A stretch of 42,971 nt of DNA from an uncultured Oscillospiraceae bacterium. Lineage in GTDB: Bacteria > Bacillota > Clostridia > Oscillospirales > Oscillospiraceae. Location of the stretch: contig CAKTIM010000021.1 in assembly GCA_934565795.1 (NCBI GenBank), positions 1-42,971 of the forward strand, given 5' to 3'. The notes under the pieces were generated by a model. It was not told the DNA's origin, did no database searches, and saw only the letters and a list, made by a program, of their open reading frames with translations. A program made the translations under genes and the position numbers. Below, one piece after another: positions 28,091-33,075 of this stretch (the first letter of the stretch is position 1; the number at the start of each line of letters is the position of its first letter).

Positions 28091-29206
28091 TCACCCTGCT
28101 GTTTCTGTTTCTTCGCTTACGATGGGGATACCCAGTGTCTGGGCTTGGGACAGGAGGGGGGCGTTGGGGATGCGGGAGCGGTTTCCGGCTAGGATTACTT
28201 GTTCGCAGCTGCGCATGATCTTTAACGCGCGGGCGATGGATGCCTGGTCGATTGGGGAAAAGGCGGGGACGGCGACCACCTGGGCGGCCAGGAGACGGGC
28301 CAGGCGGTAATCCAGATCGTTGTCATACAGGATGCCGGTGGCGAAGGGGATATTGTCCCGCTGAAGGCGGCGGTAGATGCCGATCCCCTCCCCCGCTCCG
28401 GCCAAGACGAACACGCGGGGCGTATCGCCTGTGGGCTTTTTCAGCTCAATGCTGCCAAACAGGGGGTCAAAGAAGCCGTTTTCGATGTCATACAGCTGCC
28501 GGATCCGGTTTTCCTCAAAAATCTCTCCCGGTGTGCCGCAGCCGAACAGAGCATCGCCCTTGACGGTGATGATCTTATCGGCCACCTTCTCCGCCAGGTC
28601 GATTTCGTGCAGGGACATCAGGACGGTGATGTTTTTCTTTCGCGCCATGCGGGTGAGGATGGAGAGCAGATCCAGCTTGTGCCGCACATCCAGGAAAGAG
28701 GTCGGCTCGTCCAGCAGGATCAGCTCCGGCTCCTGGCAGATGGCGCGGGCCAGCAAAATGCGCTGGCGCTGGCCGTCACTGATGGCACCAAAATCCCGTT
28801 CGCTCAGGTCAAGGGCGTGGACGGTATCCATAGCCTCGTCCACGGCCCGCTCGTCCTCCGGGCGCAGGACGCCCAGGCGGCCGGTGTAGGGATAGCGGCC
28901 GGTGGCCACGATGTCCCGGCAGGTGGTCAGCTCCACCCGAATCCGCTCGGTGAGGATCACCGCCATTTTTCTGGACAGGGCCTTGTAGGAGAAGGACTGG
29001 AGCGGCCTTCCCTCCAGCAGAACCTGGCCGGAAATGGGGGGCAGCTCCCGGGCCACGGTTTTTAAAAAGGTGGATTTACCCGCGCCGTTGGGGCCGATCA
29101 GGGCAACGATCTCCCCCTTTTGAATCTTCAGGGAGATATCCCGGATGACGGGAACGCCGTGGTAGCCGATGGAAAGGCCGCGGGTCTCAAAATAGGGCTC
29201 CGCCAT
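28091..29206 (-). CDS. btuD: Cobalamin ABC transporter ATPase with extra C-terminal domain (BtuD-like)
   Basis: 371 residues. Residues 1-255 are a FecE/BtuD-type ATPase: Walker A GPNGAGKST (38-46), signature ISDGQRQR (142-149, with Asp in place of the first Gly), Walker B LILLDEP and switch His200. Residues about 262-366 form an additional alpha/beta domain starting RVFVLAGAGEGIGIYRRL and containing ILYDNDLDYRLARLLA and EQVILAGN. Standard BtuD proteins lack this. I recognise similar tails in other gut Clostridia but cannot name the function. It is the last gene of the riboswitch-controlled operon, 1 nt after the permease. Confidence 0.88.
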   Translation of the reverse strand: MAEPYFETRGLSIGYHGVPVIRDISLKIQKGEIVALIGPNGAGKSTFLKTVARELPPISGQVLLEGRPLQSFSYKALSRKMAVILTERIRVELTTCRDIVATGRYPYTGRLGVLRPEDERAVDEAMDTVHALDLSERDFGAISDGQRQRILLARAICQEPELILLDEPTSFLDVRHKLDLLSILTRMARKKNITVLMSLHEIDLAEKVADKIITVKGDALFGCGTPGEIFEENRIRQLYDIENGFFDPLFGSIELKKPTGDTPRVFVLAGAGEGIGIYRRLQRDNIPFATGILYDNDLDYRLARLLAAQVVAVPAFSPIDQASIARALKIMRSCEQVILAGNRSRIPNAPLLSQAQTLGIPIVSEETETAG

Positions 29207-29207
29207 A

Positions 29208-30287
29208 TTATTCCCGCCTGCCTTTCCGGCGCAGCATCATATAGATCACCACCGGCGCGCCGAAGATGGAGGTGACCGTGCTGATATTCAGCTCTGTGGG
29301 GGCGAAGGCTGTGCGGGCAATCAGGTCGCAGAGCATGCAAAATACGCCGCCCCCAAGGAATGTGGCCGGAATCACCACCAGCGGCTTTGCGGTGTTCAGG
29401 CACCGCTTGATCAAAAACGGCACCGCAATGCCCACAAAGGAGATGGGGCCGGCAAAGGCCGTCACCGTGGCGGAGAGAATGCTGGAGAGCATGATGAGCG
29501 CCGTGCGGAACACCTTGATGTTCACGCCCATACTCTGCGCATAGGCTTCGCCCATCTGGTAGGCGCTGATGGGCTTGGCCATCAGAAACGTAAGCAGTGA
29601 CGTGATGCCGACCACGATGGCGGCCACGCTGACGTTGCTCCAGCTCATGCCGGAGAAGCTGCCCTTCGACCAGTTGTGCAGGTTGATGATATCGGAATCC
29701 GCCGCAAAGGTGACCACGAAATCGGTAATGGCGGTGCAGATATAGCCCACCATGATACCCGCTACCAGCAGTGTCGACATGCCGCGAATGCGCCGGGAGA
29801 ACAGCAGGATAAAGCCCACCGACAGCAAAGAGCCGACAAAGGCCGCGCCGATCAGCGCATAGGACGAGACGCTGCCGAACAGCTCCATAAAATAGATCAT
29901 GGCAAAGGCCACCACCATTTTGGCGCTGCTGGAAATGCCCAGCACAAAGGGGCCTGCAATTGGGTTGTCAAAAAAGGTTTGCAGCAGGAAGCCGGACAGG
30001 GACAGTGCGCCGCCCAGCAGCGCCGCCATGAGGATACGGGGCAGGCGAATTTTCCAGATGATGTTTACCTCGGTGGCTGCGCCGGTTTTGGTCAGGATAA
30101 TCCCGACGATCCTGCGGATGGGGATGGACACATTGCCGATGTTGATATTCAGCACTGTAATGGCAAGGAGCGCCACCAGCAGCAGCGCAAACACCAGGGC
30201 GTACCGCGCCCGGCGGCGGGCGTTGATCCCCCGATAGGCCGCAGATATTGGGGTCTGGGCAATCGCTTGATTCTTCGCTTGCTTCAT
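29208..30287 (-). CDS. btuC: Cobalamin ABC transporter permease (BtuC, FecCD family)
   Basis: 359 residues with about ten hydrophobic segments. FecCD hallmarks are WKIRLPRILMAALLGG with LSGFLLQTFFDNPIAGPFVLG, the GPISFVGIAVPFLIKR loop, and the C-terminal ELNISTVTSIFGAPVVIYM. The FecCD family carries cobalamin, haem or siderophores; the upstream cobalamin riboswitch makes cobalamin the best call. It lies 3 nt after the BtuF-like gene. Confidence 0.9.
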   Translation of the reverse strand: MKQAKNQAIAQTPISAAYRGINARRRARYALVFALLLVALLAITVLNINIGNVSIPIRRIVGIILTKTGAATEVNIIWKIRLPRILMAALLGGALSLSGFLLQTFFDNPIAGPFVLGISSSAKMVVAFAMIYFMELFGSVSSYALIGAAFVGSLLSVGFILLFSRRIRGMSTLLVAGIMVGYICTAITDFVVTFAADSDIINLHNWSKGSFSGMSWSNVSVAAIVVGITSLLTFLMAKPISAYQMGEAYAQSMGVNIKVFRTALIMLSSILSATVTAFAGPISFVGIAVPFLIKRCLNTAKPLVVIPATFLGGGVFCMLCDLIARTAFAPTELNISTVTSIFGAPVVIYMMLRRKGRRE

Positions 30288-30290
30288 ACC

Positions 30291-31436
30291 CTAGGCCACC
30301 CGCGTCAGGAAGGTCATTTGGCGCTCGTCGCCGTCCGTCAGCGCCAGGTGGATGTCCCGGATCATCTGGCCCACAATATCCGTGGCCTGATAGAAGGACT
30401 TGCCGGTGCACCACACATTGCCCTCCTGCACGCCCTTGAAATCGGCAAACAGCGCATTCAGCGCCAGCAGCTCATCCACGGTGGAGATGGGCGCGGCGAT
30501 GGAGGCATTGTAAATCAGCACATCGGCATCCACAGCCTTGGCATAGAAATCCTCCATGGTGATAGAGATGGAGGTGGCTGCCTGGTCGGTAACGAAGTCC
30601 TCAAAGGCATACCGCCCGCCCGCAAGCTCGATCATCCTTGGAATGTAGTCGCCGGGCTTGCGGATCGACACGGAGCCGTCGGAGTTGACGGCGAAAAAGG
30701 CCACGGTCTTGCCGGTGTTCTCAAAATCCTCCAGCTCCCGGATCACGGCGGCCTGCCGGTCAAAGAATGCCGTTGCCTCGTCCTCCCTGTCCACCAGCAC
30801 CGCATAGAGCTTGATCCATTCGGTTCTGCCCAGGGGGTGCGGCTCGTAGCTGGAGCGATCCACCAACACGGGGATGCCCAGATCCTCGATCATTTCCTTG
30901 ACCTTGGGGGTGTGGTAAATCATGGTGGACTCGATTGCCAGGTTGCAGTCCTGGCTGATCATCAGCTCATAGTCCGGCTCGCTGTACTTCCCGGCGAAGT
31001 GCATCGCGCCGGAATTCAGCGCCTCCACAGCGGCATCGATGTACCAGCCGGAGGCTCTGGTGCCGGTGAGGCGGATGTGATCCAGGGCACCCACCGCGTT
31101 GAACAGGGACATGGCGGAGGTGGCGGCCAGATAAATCCGATCCAGCGGCTGCCAGAGGACGGTGATGCCGTCGTCCAGCTCGCCGGGAACCTGGCCGTCC
31201 TCGGGGACGACCAGGAAGCTATCGCCGTTTTCAATGGTGATGAGGGTATAGCCGCCCTCGTAGCGGTACAGGTGGAAGCACTGGGCGTATTCCAGCTCCG
31301 TCTCTCCCTCGAAGGTCAGGCCCGGAATTTCGGGTGCTCCCTCCGCCCCGGCGCGGGGGCAGCCAAACGCCAGCAGCGCCAGCTGCATGACAAGCACCAG
31401 CAGCAGTGCGGTAATTCGCTTCATTTTCTTTTTCAT
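30291..31436 (-). CDS. btuF: Cobalamin-binding protein (BtuF-like, full two-lobe)
   Basis: 381 residues. The N-terminus is a signal peptide with a weak lipobox (AFGC, Cys26). The mature protein is a helical-backbone binding protein of the BtuF/FecB class: an N-lobe of about 35-222 (DRIYLAATSAMSLFNAVGAL, GIPVLVDRSSYEP), a linker helix near 222-240 and a C-lobe to the end (TVAFFAVNSDGSVSIRKPG, GGRYAF, then VQEGNVWCTGKSFYQ). It should deliver corrinoid to BtuCD. It overlaps the upstream half-BtuF gene by 4 nt, with GGGGAGG 7 nt before its ATG. Its N-lobe aligns well with residues 206-433 of that neighbour, so the two share a recent common origin. Confidence 0.87.
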   Translation of the reverse strand: MKKKMKRITALLLVLVMQLALLAFGCPRAGAEGAPEIPGLTFEGETELEYAQCFHLYRYEGGYTLITIENGDSFLVVPEDGQVPGELDDGITVLWQPLDRIYLAATSAMSLFNAVGALDHIRLTGTRASGWYIDAAVEALNSGAMHFAGKYSEPDYELMISQDCNLAIESTMIYHTPKVKEMIEDLGIPVLVDRSSYEPHPLGRTEWIKLYAVLVDREDEATAFFDRQAAVIRELEDFENTGKTVAFFAVNSDGSVSIRKPGDYIPRMIELAGGRYAFEDFVTDQAATSISITMEDFYAKAVDADVLIYNASIAAPISTVDELLALNALFADFKGVQEGNVWCTGKSFYQATDIVGQMIRDIHLALTDGDERQMTFLTRVA

Positions 31437-32758
31437 GGGTTGTCCTCCCCGGCAATAGCTGCGTCATAGAGCGTGCCTGCCGCGTCCTGCCTGCCGAACA
31501 GGATTCCGTAGAGCTTCAGCCATGCGGCCCGGCCCTCGGCCTCCGGCTCTTGGCTGGAGCGGTCAATGACCAGTGGGATACCCAGGGCATCAAAGCGGTC
31601 GGTGAGTTTTGTCAGGCGGTCGCTGCACTCCGCGGCGGTCAGCGTCCCGTCGTCCTGGGTCAGAGGCGCAGCCCCGATCAGGCCCAGCGCTATCTTTTCC
31701 CTGATCAGGGTACGGTAATCAGGCTTCTGCCATGTGCCGCCGGGCAGCTTTTCACCGCTTTCCAGCATGGCAATGAGGCTCTCGTCCTCGCAGTCCTCCG
31801 GCAGCACGCGCACACTGTCCATGGCCCCCAGCCGATCCAGTGTCCCGGCCAGGGTCTCGTCCATCAGGCAGATATTGGAGGCAGGGATGCTTATCATCAG
31901 GTAATCCCTTTCCAGTCCGGCGGGCAGCTCCACACCGGCGGGAACCAGCAAATATTTGAGAGCATCGGCCTGATACAGAGTGGACTGCCCTTGTGCCTGC
32001 ACTGCCTCGCCGGTATCCAGAGCGGTATCCCGCCGCAGGTCAATTTCCGCCAGCACCACGCCCTGATCGTATTGGAAGAGCCTCAGGTAGCGCGCGCCGG
32101 TGGTTTTGATATTCTCCCTGAACGTCTGTCCCGGAATCTCCGGGGCCGTTTCATCCAATCTGGAATCGGCATCCTCCCCGGCACTCAGGGCATCGTCTGC
32201 GGAGCCAGAGACGGGCGGGGTATTTTTCAGCTGAATGTAGATGTTGTATTCAATCTCGTGGGCAGCGGACATCTTGGTGGTCATGCCCAGGATACGGTTA
32301 TTGGCGTTCAGGGTCACGGGGATGGTAAAATTACCGTCCGCCGCAGGATAGTACACGTTGCCGGAGGCCTTGACGTACTGATAGGCAGACGGTGTGCCGG
32401 TGGTGCTCTGGAAATGGATCACCGCGCAGGAGTGTCCGTCCCTGATAATCACCCCGTCGCAGACGATCCGCGTCTTGCCGGTGCCGCCGGAAAAGGTGAA
32501 GTCGTCCGGCACATAATATCCGTCCTCCAGGCCGGTGGCGCTGTCCACGGGGGAGGTAGTGTTATCCGCATCCGGCTCGGATGGACTGGTCGGTTCGGCG
32601 GGAGGATTTCCGGGCTGCTCTGAGCTGTGCCGGATATCAACCGCAGCCTCATCGGCGCTCTCATTGTCGGGAGCGTTGGCAAAGCACAGCCTGCCGCAGC
32701 ACACCAGCATTGCGCCTGCCAGCGCAAATACTGCAATTCTTCTCCGTATTGTTGACAT
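31433..32758 (-). CDS. Secreted fusion: unknown beta-rich module plus half of a BtuF-like fold
   Basis: 441 residues. The ATG at 32,758 follows AGGAGG at 8 nt; upstream in-frame ATGs fall inside the riboswitch and terminator. Residues 1-29 are a signal peptide (likely cut after FANA; no clear lipobox). A Pro/Ser/Glu-rich linker (30-75) leads to a module at about 78-177 with GYYVPDDFTFSGGTGK, IVCDGVIIRDG, NFTIPVTLNANN and TTKMSAAHEIEYNIYI. I have a recollection of this module in other Clostridia surface proteins but cannot name it. Residues 206-441 match only the N-lobe of the BtuF encoded next (PEIPGxTF at the start, DRSSxEP and WLKLYGILFGRQD at the end) and stop where the interlobe helix would begin. 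The riboswitch implies a corrinoid role, perhaps surface capture. Confidence 0.85.
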   Translation of the reverse strand: MSTIRRRIAVFALAGAMLVCCGRLCFANAPDNESADEAAVDIRHSSEQPGNPPAEPTSPSEPDADNTTSPVDSATGLEDGYYVPDDFTFSGGTGKTRIVCDGVIIRDGHSCAVIHFQSTTGTPSAYQYVKASGNVYYPAADGNFTIPVTLNANNRILGMTTKMSAAHEIEYNIYIQLKNTPPVSGSADDALSAGEDADSRLDETAPEIPGQTFRENIKTTGARYLRLFQYDQGVVLAEIDLRRDTALDTGEAVQAQGQSTLYQADALKYLLVPAGVELPAGLERDYLMISIPASNICLMDETLAGTLDRLGAMDSVRVLPEDCEDESLIAMLESGEKLPGGTWQKPDYRTLIREKIALGLIGAAPLTQDDGTLTAAECSDRLTKLTDRFDALGIPLVIDRSSQEPEAEGRAAWLKLYGILFGRQDAAGTLYDAAIAGEDNP

Positions 32759-32840
32759 AAAACACGCCTCCTGTGCATGGCTCTCCTTGCAAGGCTTGCA
32801 TCGGGCGGCGGAGGAGCCACGTTCTCTTATTTTTTCTCCC

Positions 32841-32877
32841 GAAAAAAGTAACAGAGCAGCACAAGTGTGCCGCTCTG
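32841..32877 (-). terminator. Riboswitch expression-platform terminator
   Basis: Stem CAGAGCGGCAC/GTGCTGCTCTG with loop ACTT on the minus strand, followed by TTACTTTTTT. It sits between the cobalamin aptamer and the first gene, so ligand-dependent premature termination is the expected mechanism. Confidence 0.8.
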
Positions 32878-32919
32878 ACGGTGTTTTCAGAACACAAAAC
32901 GTTTTAATCGGAAACATGC

Positions 32920-33075
32920 TCATTGGACGAAATATCCTGACTCCGCCTCACCGCTCGCCCCGCCTTCCCAGTTTCCCAGTGGCCCAATGGGGGTCGCTCC
33001 GCGTTACAGTTGCCGTTACAGTCCGTGGATTCCACACGGTTCCTTCGCTCCAATGCTGATATTCACTTCACGGGA
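32920..33075 (-). ncRNA. Cobalamin riboswitch
   Basis: On the minus strand the conserved core is easy to read, in order: GAAGGAACCGTG with GAATCCACGG, AACTGTAACGCGGAGCGACC, GCCACTGGGAAACTGGGAA, GGCGGGGCGAGCGG and the B12-box AGTCAGGATA (near 32,942-32,933). This is the order and wording of the widespread cobalamin aptamer class. It lies between a promoter and a terminator, upstream of the half-BtuF/BtuF/BtuC/BtuD genes, and so identifies that operon as corrinoid uptake. Confidence 0.92.

Follow-up and report, generated by a model that had tools for sequence, protein, structure and literature searches.

The window, a 42,971-nucleotide stretch of a contig from an uncultured Oscillospiraceae bacterium (GenBank assembly GCA_934565795.1, contig CAKTIM010000021.1, positions 1 to 42,971), carries on its reverse strand a four-gene operon whose first gene encodes a secreted protein that joins a NEAT-fold module to half of a BtuF-like binding protein. 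A cobalamin riboswitch stands ahead of the operon, as a preliminary description of this DNA had proposed: an RF00174 aptamer at 32908-33069 (cmscan, 61 bits against a gathering threshold of 31.5) lies 150 nt upstream of the start of gene 1. In the gap between them a terminator-like hairpin (32852-32877, an 11-pair stem with a T run), set in a stretch with a folding z of -3.16 (32740-32907), may be the expression platform of the riboswitch. Gene 1 (31433-32758, 441 aa), called from its open reading frame (ORF), Shine-Dalgarno (SD) sequence and homologues, has its own SD and overlaps gene 2 through an ATGA. Gene 2 (30291-31436) encodes a full BtuF-like binding protein (PF01497, E 3.3e-32) with a separate start, SD and signal peptide, a lipobox-like LAFGC and docking residues Glu157 and Glu295. 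Gene 3 (29208-30287) encodes a BtuC-like permease (FecCD, PF01032, E 1.4e-73) and gene 4 (28091-29206) a BtuD-like ATPase (PF00005, E 8.6e-32, residues 22-170 of 371), so that a binding protein, a FecCD permease and an ATPase follow a B12 riboswitch; the permease and ATPase do not reach the cut-offs of the BtuC and corrinoid-ATPase equivalog models. The gene 1 protein is a real, conserved surface component of a B12-pathway importer, undescribed as far as we searched the literature, and we tentatively propose below what it may carry.

Gene 1 itself has no match in Pfam and NCBIfam at E<=1. By eye, its first ~28 residues form a signal peptide (32675-32758), from the end of which a Pro/Ser/Thr-rich linker runs to about residue 76. 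Residues 77-180 (32219-32530) follow as a module, and beyond a second linker residues 206-441 (31436-32143) make up the N-lobe of a class III binding protein, with the interlobe helix last. The domain boundaries given earlier are right, and so is the assignment of residues 206-441 to the N-terminal half of a BtuF-like protein; structure prediction, with an N-lobe fold, rules out an unrelated domain there. It also gives the surface module, previously described as unknown, a predicted NEAT fold. NEAT domains are haem-binding surface domains. We call the module NEAT-fold, not a PF05031 member, because its PF05031 score lies below the cut-off; a related array module in one homologous locus (L004; loci are numbered with L, host genomes with G) clears it, at 34.9 bits against 32.8. 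Searching PDB sequences with modules as queries brought up no NEAT domain. Across modules that precede a lobe, T160, M163, H167 and Y171 are invariant, and an HxxxY motif occupies the last hairpin in 82 of 82 rows (one of which, with five of the 219 modules in the module counts, comes from L027, on the contig of L026), its residue correspondence to haem NEAT domains not being established. Haem NEAT domains have a Tyr at that place, within a YxxxY haem-ligand motif at the last hairpin. After a comparison with the NEAT domains of one genome, His167 is a candidate metal ligand and no more.

Where gene 2 encodes both lobes around a cleft, gene 1 has the N-lobe only, with no partner lobe. In a tree, 54 such half-lobes form one clade against 73 full lobes (approximate likelihood ratio support, SH-aLRT, 99.9), showing that the half-lobe, a relative of the BtuF N-lobe, arose once; the 73 are distinct sequences, with the window BtuF counted once, and the 54 leave out five short or cut relatives (L059, L060, L061, L062@1145 and L066) that stay in the 57-locus and 58-gene counts below and, where searched, among the 44 genes of the riboswitch count. 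Together with the separate start, SD and signal peptide, the 54-member clade rules out both a frameshifted single BtuF gene, in agreement with the preliminary description, and a chance truncation of BtuF. The branch of the window half-lobe is long, at 1.55; that of the window BtuF measures 0.26.

The half-lobes have parted from BtuF at specific positions. Glu157 and Glu295 of the window BtuF pair, in a weak hhalign match (E 0.079), with residues 72 and 202 of E. coli BtuF, which we take to be its two docking glutamates. All 73 full lobes have Glu at the first position and none of the 54 half-lobes does; the half-lobes have Lys (34), Arg (13), Ala (5), Ser (1) or Thr (1) there, Lys or Arg thus in 47 of 54, and the window half-lobe has Arg349 (31712-31714). 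At the second position every one of 75 C-lobes has Glu. W131, M172 and P177 each occur in 73/73 full lobes and 0/54 half-lobes, and H175 in 71/73 and 0/54. Half-lobes retain Y151 in 25 and D155 in 32 of 54 cases, E198 in all 54, W207 in 53, E206 in 52 and Y211 in 51. Judged from these alignments, the half-lobe is a lobe that keeps its core without the BtuF-invariant motifs and mostly with reversed charge at the presumed docking point. Since the pocket motifs and the transporter-docking Glu are lost, we do not regard it as a BtuF, and with that Glu changed to Lys or Arg, BtuF-like docking on the permease is hardly possible for it, contrary to the earlier suggestion that it docks on BtuC.

This arrangement is widespread. 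A protein search returned 208 relatives, and we took as homologous loci the best 80 of 528 confirmed stretches from a genome contig scan with a 16-row alignment; nearly all are titled as Lachnospiraceae and other Clostridia. In-house profiles separate two gene plans. In plan A, further modules precede a last NEAT-fold module and the N-lobe, and the full BtuF is encoded separately; in plan B (20 ORFs), a NEAT-fold module and a full BtuF form a single chain. Natural single-chain fusions of half-lobe and full BtuF occur in L036 and L046. The operon plan of the window is conserved in many gut Clostridia, mostly with arrays of additional NEAT-like modules. A full BtuF gene lies directly behind 49 of 58 half-lobe genes (57 loci), its start between -137 and +212 bp from the end of the half-lobe gene. 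The other nine comprise L031 (BtuF 2.2 kb upstream), L062@1145 (BtuF 3.4 kb further on), L029, L039, L059 and L061 (where the contig or locus stops within 540 bp), and L045, L060 and L066 (no BtuF within the locus). A short lipoprotein subfamily with one NEAT-fold module and a partial lobe (L059:3532-4518, L060:8902-9873, L066:2364-3401 and L062:1145-2119) has no full BtuF directly behind it.

A simple lipobox pattern matches 31 of the 53 BtuF genes and six of the 50 half-lobe genes; among the six, L042 is false by eye, L045 is real and four belong to the short subfamily. That the half-lobe might serve as an anchor for the 22 pattern-negative BtuFs is a guess, since some of these have a lipobox by eye. 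A metagenomic relative, P0014, fuses CbiJ (precorrin-6x reductase) to a module and half-lobe and has no signal peptide. L026 and L027 lie on one 25.7 kb contig, taken in opposing orientations, and their riboswitches mirror each other, which looks like a palindromic assembly; L027 was left out of all counts except those of module rows. Elsewhere in the window, gene 4 (28091-29206) has ~120 additional C-terminal residues past its ATP-binding cassette (ABC) domain, many sister ATPases in homologous loci being of like length (about 360-380 aa), and a QueT-family transporter gene (PF06177, 33581-34153) lies upstream of the riboswitch operon.

Most homologous loci that we examined are under B12 riboswitch control. 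In the 53 of 80 loci searched, 34 of the 44 module and half-lobe genes have a same-strand RF00174 match no more than 6 kb upstream, 14 of them within 400 bp. Module homologues lying mainly in haem- or iron-regulated loci, a result that the preliminary description named as refuting, were not seen; iron control was not searched for. Sixteen host genomes of ~53 Mb in all have 79 RF00174 matches, 76 of them above the cut-off, from which chance would yield about 0.2 in 44. Same-strand matches also precede five of eight plan B genes and both half-lobe/BtuF fusions. No same-strand match was found within 6 kb for L008, L030, L040, L042, L043, L045, L060, L061, L062@1145 and L066, of which L040 and L042 have less than 500 bp of upstream sequence. 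Six of nine further loci carry a match, ahead of the operon in L074 and L080 and behind BtuD, ahead of CbiK, in L067, L069, L070 and L076; none was found in L075, L077 and L078.

The gene that comes first behind these riboswitches is often CbiK, a cobalt chelatase (by Pfam, in 14 of 24 loci, with L053 and L062 not scanned); elsewhere it encodes Ig-like, cadherin-like, LRR or cell-wall-binding proteins, or is unnamed. Examples of a secreted CbiK in this position are L022:1844-6628, L050:366-2210, L015:4826-6697 and L023:4927-6828, among others, and some of these proteins have two CbiK domains or fn3. CbiK domains occur in 18 of 57 half-lobe loci and 16 of 22 full-length or fusion loci, with a signal sequence (by hydropathy and eye) in 13 of each; corrin genes, searched with seven seeds and checked by Pfam for ten proteins, occur in 17 of the 57 and 11 of the 22. 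Among 34 CbiK ORFs, 26 have a signal sequence and eight do not, one of the eight being cut. The PF06180 domains of these neighbours conserve the GHG His in 35 of 36 and the GDH His in 34 of 36, which argues for CbiK activity. In Coprococcus comes (G003, L005), a lipobox-bearing CbiK lies at a second cobalamin riboswitch and is followed by a NEAT-like gene. In-house profiles place CbiK and NEAT-like modules in one chain in L011, L023, L026, L041, L063, L069, L070, L074 and L077. Of the secreted chains of this kind at L063:12390-14195, L069:7232-8953, L074:4753-6429 and L077:290-2029, only that of L069 gives a PF05031 match, a weak one (E 0.067), and L063, L074 and L077 give none at E<=0.001.

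We then compared 24 host genomes, selected by hand from the 80 loci and of completeness not given, scoring SUMT as TIGR01469 and CbiL as TIGR01467, both over their cut-offs. All 24 have CbiD and CbiK, 20 have CbiL, 16 have HemC, the same 16 have SUMT, and 13 have HemB. Eight of the 24 (G002, G003, G006, G310, G313, G314, G317 and G318) carry corrin genes without the early tetrapyrrole genes that we compared: HemB, HemC and SUMT are all missing, CbiD is kept and CbiK is present in secreted form only. Because completeness is not given, single gene absences may be gaps; the joint loss of three genes in eight genomes, each with CbiD, is hard to put down to gaps. Two of the eight, G003 (C. comes) and G006 (AD3010), are not titled as metagenome-assembled genomes. 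In an order-wide set of 295 genomes, from the order to which G003 belongs, the NEAT/lobe profile finds a match in 44. The matches comprise plan B genes and separate NEAT genes next to BtuF as well, the half-lobe type being confirmed for C. comes. Of these 44 genomes 39 have CbiK, against 88 of the other 251 (p 1.6e-11), and in 35 of the 44 it lies no more than 5 kb from the NEAT/lobe match.

From the anatomy, the riboswitch, the conservation, the neighbours and the gene losses we infer a ligand, a direction of relay and an adaptor role. Our preferred reading, held tentatively and at not quite an even chance, is that the gene 1 protein acts at the surface as the relay subunit of a B12-pathway importer and that its ligand is most likely cobalt-sirohydrochlorin (Co-sirohydrochlorin). 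The known ligands of NEAT modules are flat tetrapyrroles, and Co-sirohydrochlorin is what CbiK makes and what CbiL then uses. Outside the cell, NEAT-fold modules would bind a flat cobalt-tetrapyrrole; this would most likely be Co-sirohydrochlorin, produced there by secreted CbiK. The last module, packed on the half-lobe, would hand it to the full BtuF; the half-lobe would serve as a BtuF-derived adaptor orienting the hand-over, and BtuF alone would dock on BtuCD. Inside the cell, CbiL, CbiD and CbiF of the corrin pathway would carry on to B12. Given the ligands of NEAT domains, the sequence kinship of BtuF to Lmo2184 and IsdE and the chemistry from CbiK to CbiL, surface CbiK, NEAT modules and BtuCDF would allow a cell lacking HemB, HemC and SUMT to start the corrin pathway. 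We favour a relay feeding Co-sirohydrochlorin into B12 synthesis because secreted CbiK adjoins some members and eight of 24 genomes keep CbiD without HemB, HemC and SUMT. The surface-relay logic of the preliminary description is plausible; as to its corrinoid ligand, the relatives' neighbours and the gene losses make a cobalt-tetrapyrrole precursor at least as likely.

A wider proposal is that B12 synthesis starts extracellularly, with riboswitch-controlled secreted CbiK acting on sirohydrochlorin from neighbouring cells and NEAT arrays, half-lobe adaptor, BtuF and BtuCD replacing HemA-D and SUMT. This is possible, and we would sooner doubt than accept it.

Several results weigh against Co-sirohydrochlorin import by such a relay. 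The window has no corrin gene (seven seeds) and no CbiK domain; secreted CbiK adjoins only the minority of half-lobe loci given above, and in some host genomes, such as that of L005, CbiK lies elsewhere. Most host genomes (16 of 24) have HemC and SUMT, and CbiL is over its cut-off in just five of the eight HemC-less ones. The order-wide set shows no association between the system and HemC loss (HemC in 18/44 against 86/251, p 0.40); within CbiK-positive genomes HemC is absent from 21/39 against 23/84 (p 0.008, uncorrected for kinship), a mild trend only. The window module has no PF05031 match, three of 38 family modules match weakly and below threshold (best E 0.021), and our in-house NEAT-only profile does not hit the window module. 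An AlphaFold model of the L036 fusion (pLDDT 87, predicted template-modelling score, pTM, 0.55) shows no confident packing of half-lobe on BtuF, most of its second N-lobe having an alignment of three rows; the suggestion that the half-lobe docks on BtuF therefore finds no support. In a mirror-tree comparison, half-lobe distances track BtuF and BtuC about equally.

The main rival is a corrinoid capture relay, in which NEAT-fold modules bind cobamides or cobinamide and pass them to BtuF while CbiK and corrin genes are merely co-regulated. We regard it as possible but doubtful. Cobalamin riboswitches, BtuCDF-type ABC genes and adjoining corrin genes fit it; the 16 genomes with HemC and SUMT would need no tetrapyrrole import, and CbiK is absent from the window and from 39 of 57 half-lobe loci. 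A finished corrinoid is possible for the window above all: only the riboswitch, module, half-lobe and importer are seen there, and its ligand could be a corrinoid. Against corrinoids stand the flat tetrapyrroles that NEAT domains are known to bind and the solved relatives of BtuF, since a BtuF family profile finds four solved sequences at E<=0.1, mainly over the C-lobe, led by the haem binders Lmo2184 (4e-8) and IsdE (2.5e-4), with no B12 binder among them. Corrinoid capture also leaves the adjoining secreted CbiK and the CbiD genomes without HemB, HemC and SUMT unexplained.

That the half-lobe is a degenerate remnant of a NEAT-BtuF fusion gene, left as a functionless spacer after BtuF duplication, is unlikely. 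It does evolve faster than BtuF (median distance 1.29 against 0.76, 43 loci), its pocket-side residues are gone, single chains of NEAT module and full BtuF exist, and the L036 fusion model lacks confident docking; yet E198 and W207 are retained almost throughout, the Lys/Arg swap is consistent, NEAT module and half-lobe are modelled as one unit (pTM 0.89), and half-lobe distances correlate with those of BtuF beyond BtuC (partial r 0.32, 0/1000 permutations), although the BtuC partial is equal-sized (0.31). Isd-like uptake of haem or iron-porphyrin, with CbiK as a chelatase acting on haem, is very improbable: the NEAT fold and the IsdE/Lmo2184-like C-lobe suit it, but the riboswitch type, the corrin gene neighbours, CbiD in all 24 selected genomes and the last-hairpin His in place of the Tyr of haem NEATs (correspondence not proven) do not.

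Co-sirohydrochlorin relay would bear on a gap in gut metabolism. Some gut Firmicutes are described, in the part of the study considered here, as tetrapyrrole precursor salvagers, with corrin genes present and early tetrapyrrole genes absent; that part leaves their route of precursor uptake open and names no surface uptake system, and the word sirohydrochlorin does not occur in the main text (PMC6461909, Shelton et al.). The family supplies named genes for such a route, and members in the cultured commensals C. comes (L005) and Oliverpabstia intestinalis (L014) make it directly testable. The relatives beside secreted cobalt-inserting enzymes hint at an unrecognised cell-surface uptake of B12 building blocks, and a binding protein reduced to one lobe yet retained is an unusual fate for the class III fold. 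In titles and abstract openings of the open-licence literature, and in part of PMC10327494, we found no paper linking NEAT domains to uptake of B12 or tetrapyrrole precursors. The family varies the NEAT relay idea, and a larger novelty may lie in extracellular cobalt loading.

Genomes with corrin genes and without early tetrapyrrole genes match the tetrapyrrole precursor salvagers, as far as the part of that study considered here describes them (PMC6461909). In BtuCDF importers, as here, a binding protein, permease and ATPase work together, and gene 2 appears to have the docking pair (E157/E295, in the weak alignment above); the additional half-lobe protein ahead of BtuF, its docking Glu exchanged, in most cases for Lys or Arg, sets these operons apart. 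Gram-positive Isd and Hbp systems are NEAT haem relays, passing haem from IsdA, IsdB and IsdC to IsdE. They share with the present family NEAT-fold surface modules mostly in arrays, an often lipobox-bearing binding protein and a FecCD-type ABC importer, and, among solved sequences, IsdE is one of the closest relatives of the BtuF described here. The present family differs in its cobalamin riboswitch, in a module chain that ends in half a binding protein, in a last-hairpin His instead of Tyr, and in that some members have corrin genes and a secreted CbiK nearby. BtuG and BtuH of Bacteroidetes are outer-membrane lipoproteins of other folds that capture B12 at the surface; the possible role, outer capture ahead of BtuF, is alike, whereas the means here are a predicted NEAT fold and a BtuF-derived lobe. 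CbiK has an exported form in Desulfovibrio, and the CbiK proteins beside our family have the same PF06180 domain with its conserved histidines; they differ in that most have a signal sequence, sit in cobalamin-riboswitch operons with NEAT and ABC genes, and in some cases share a chain with NEAT-like modules.

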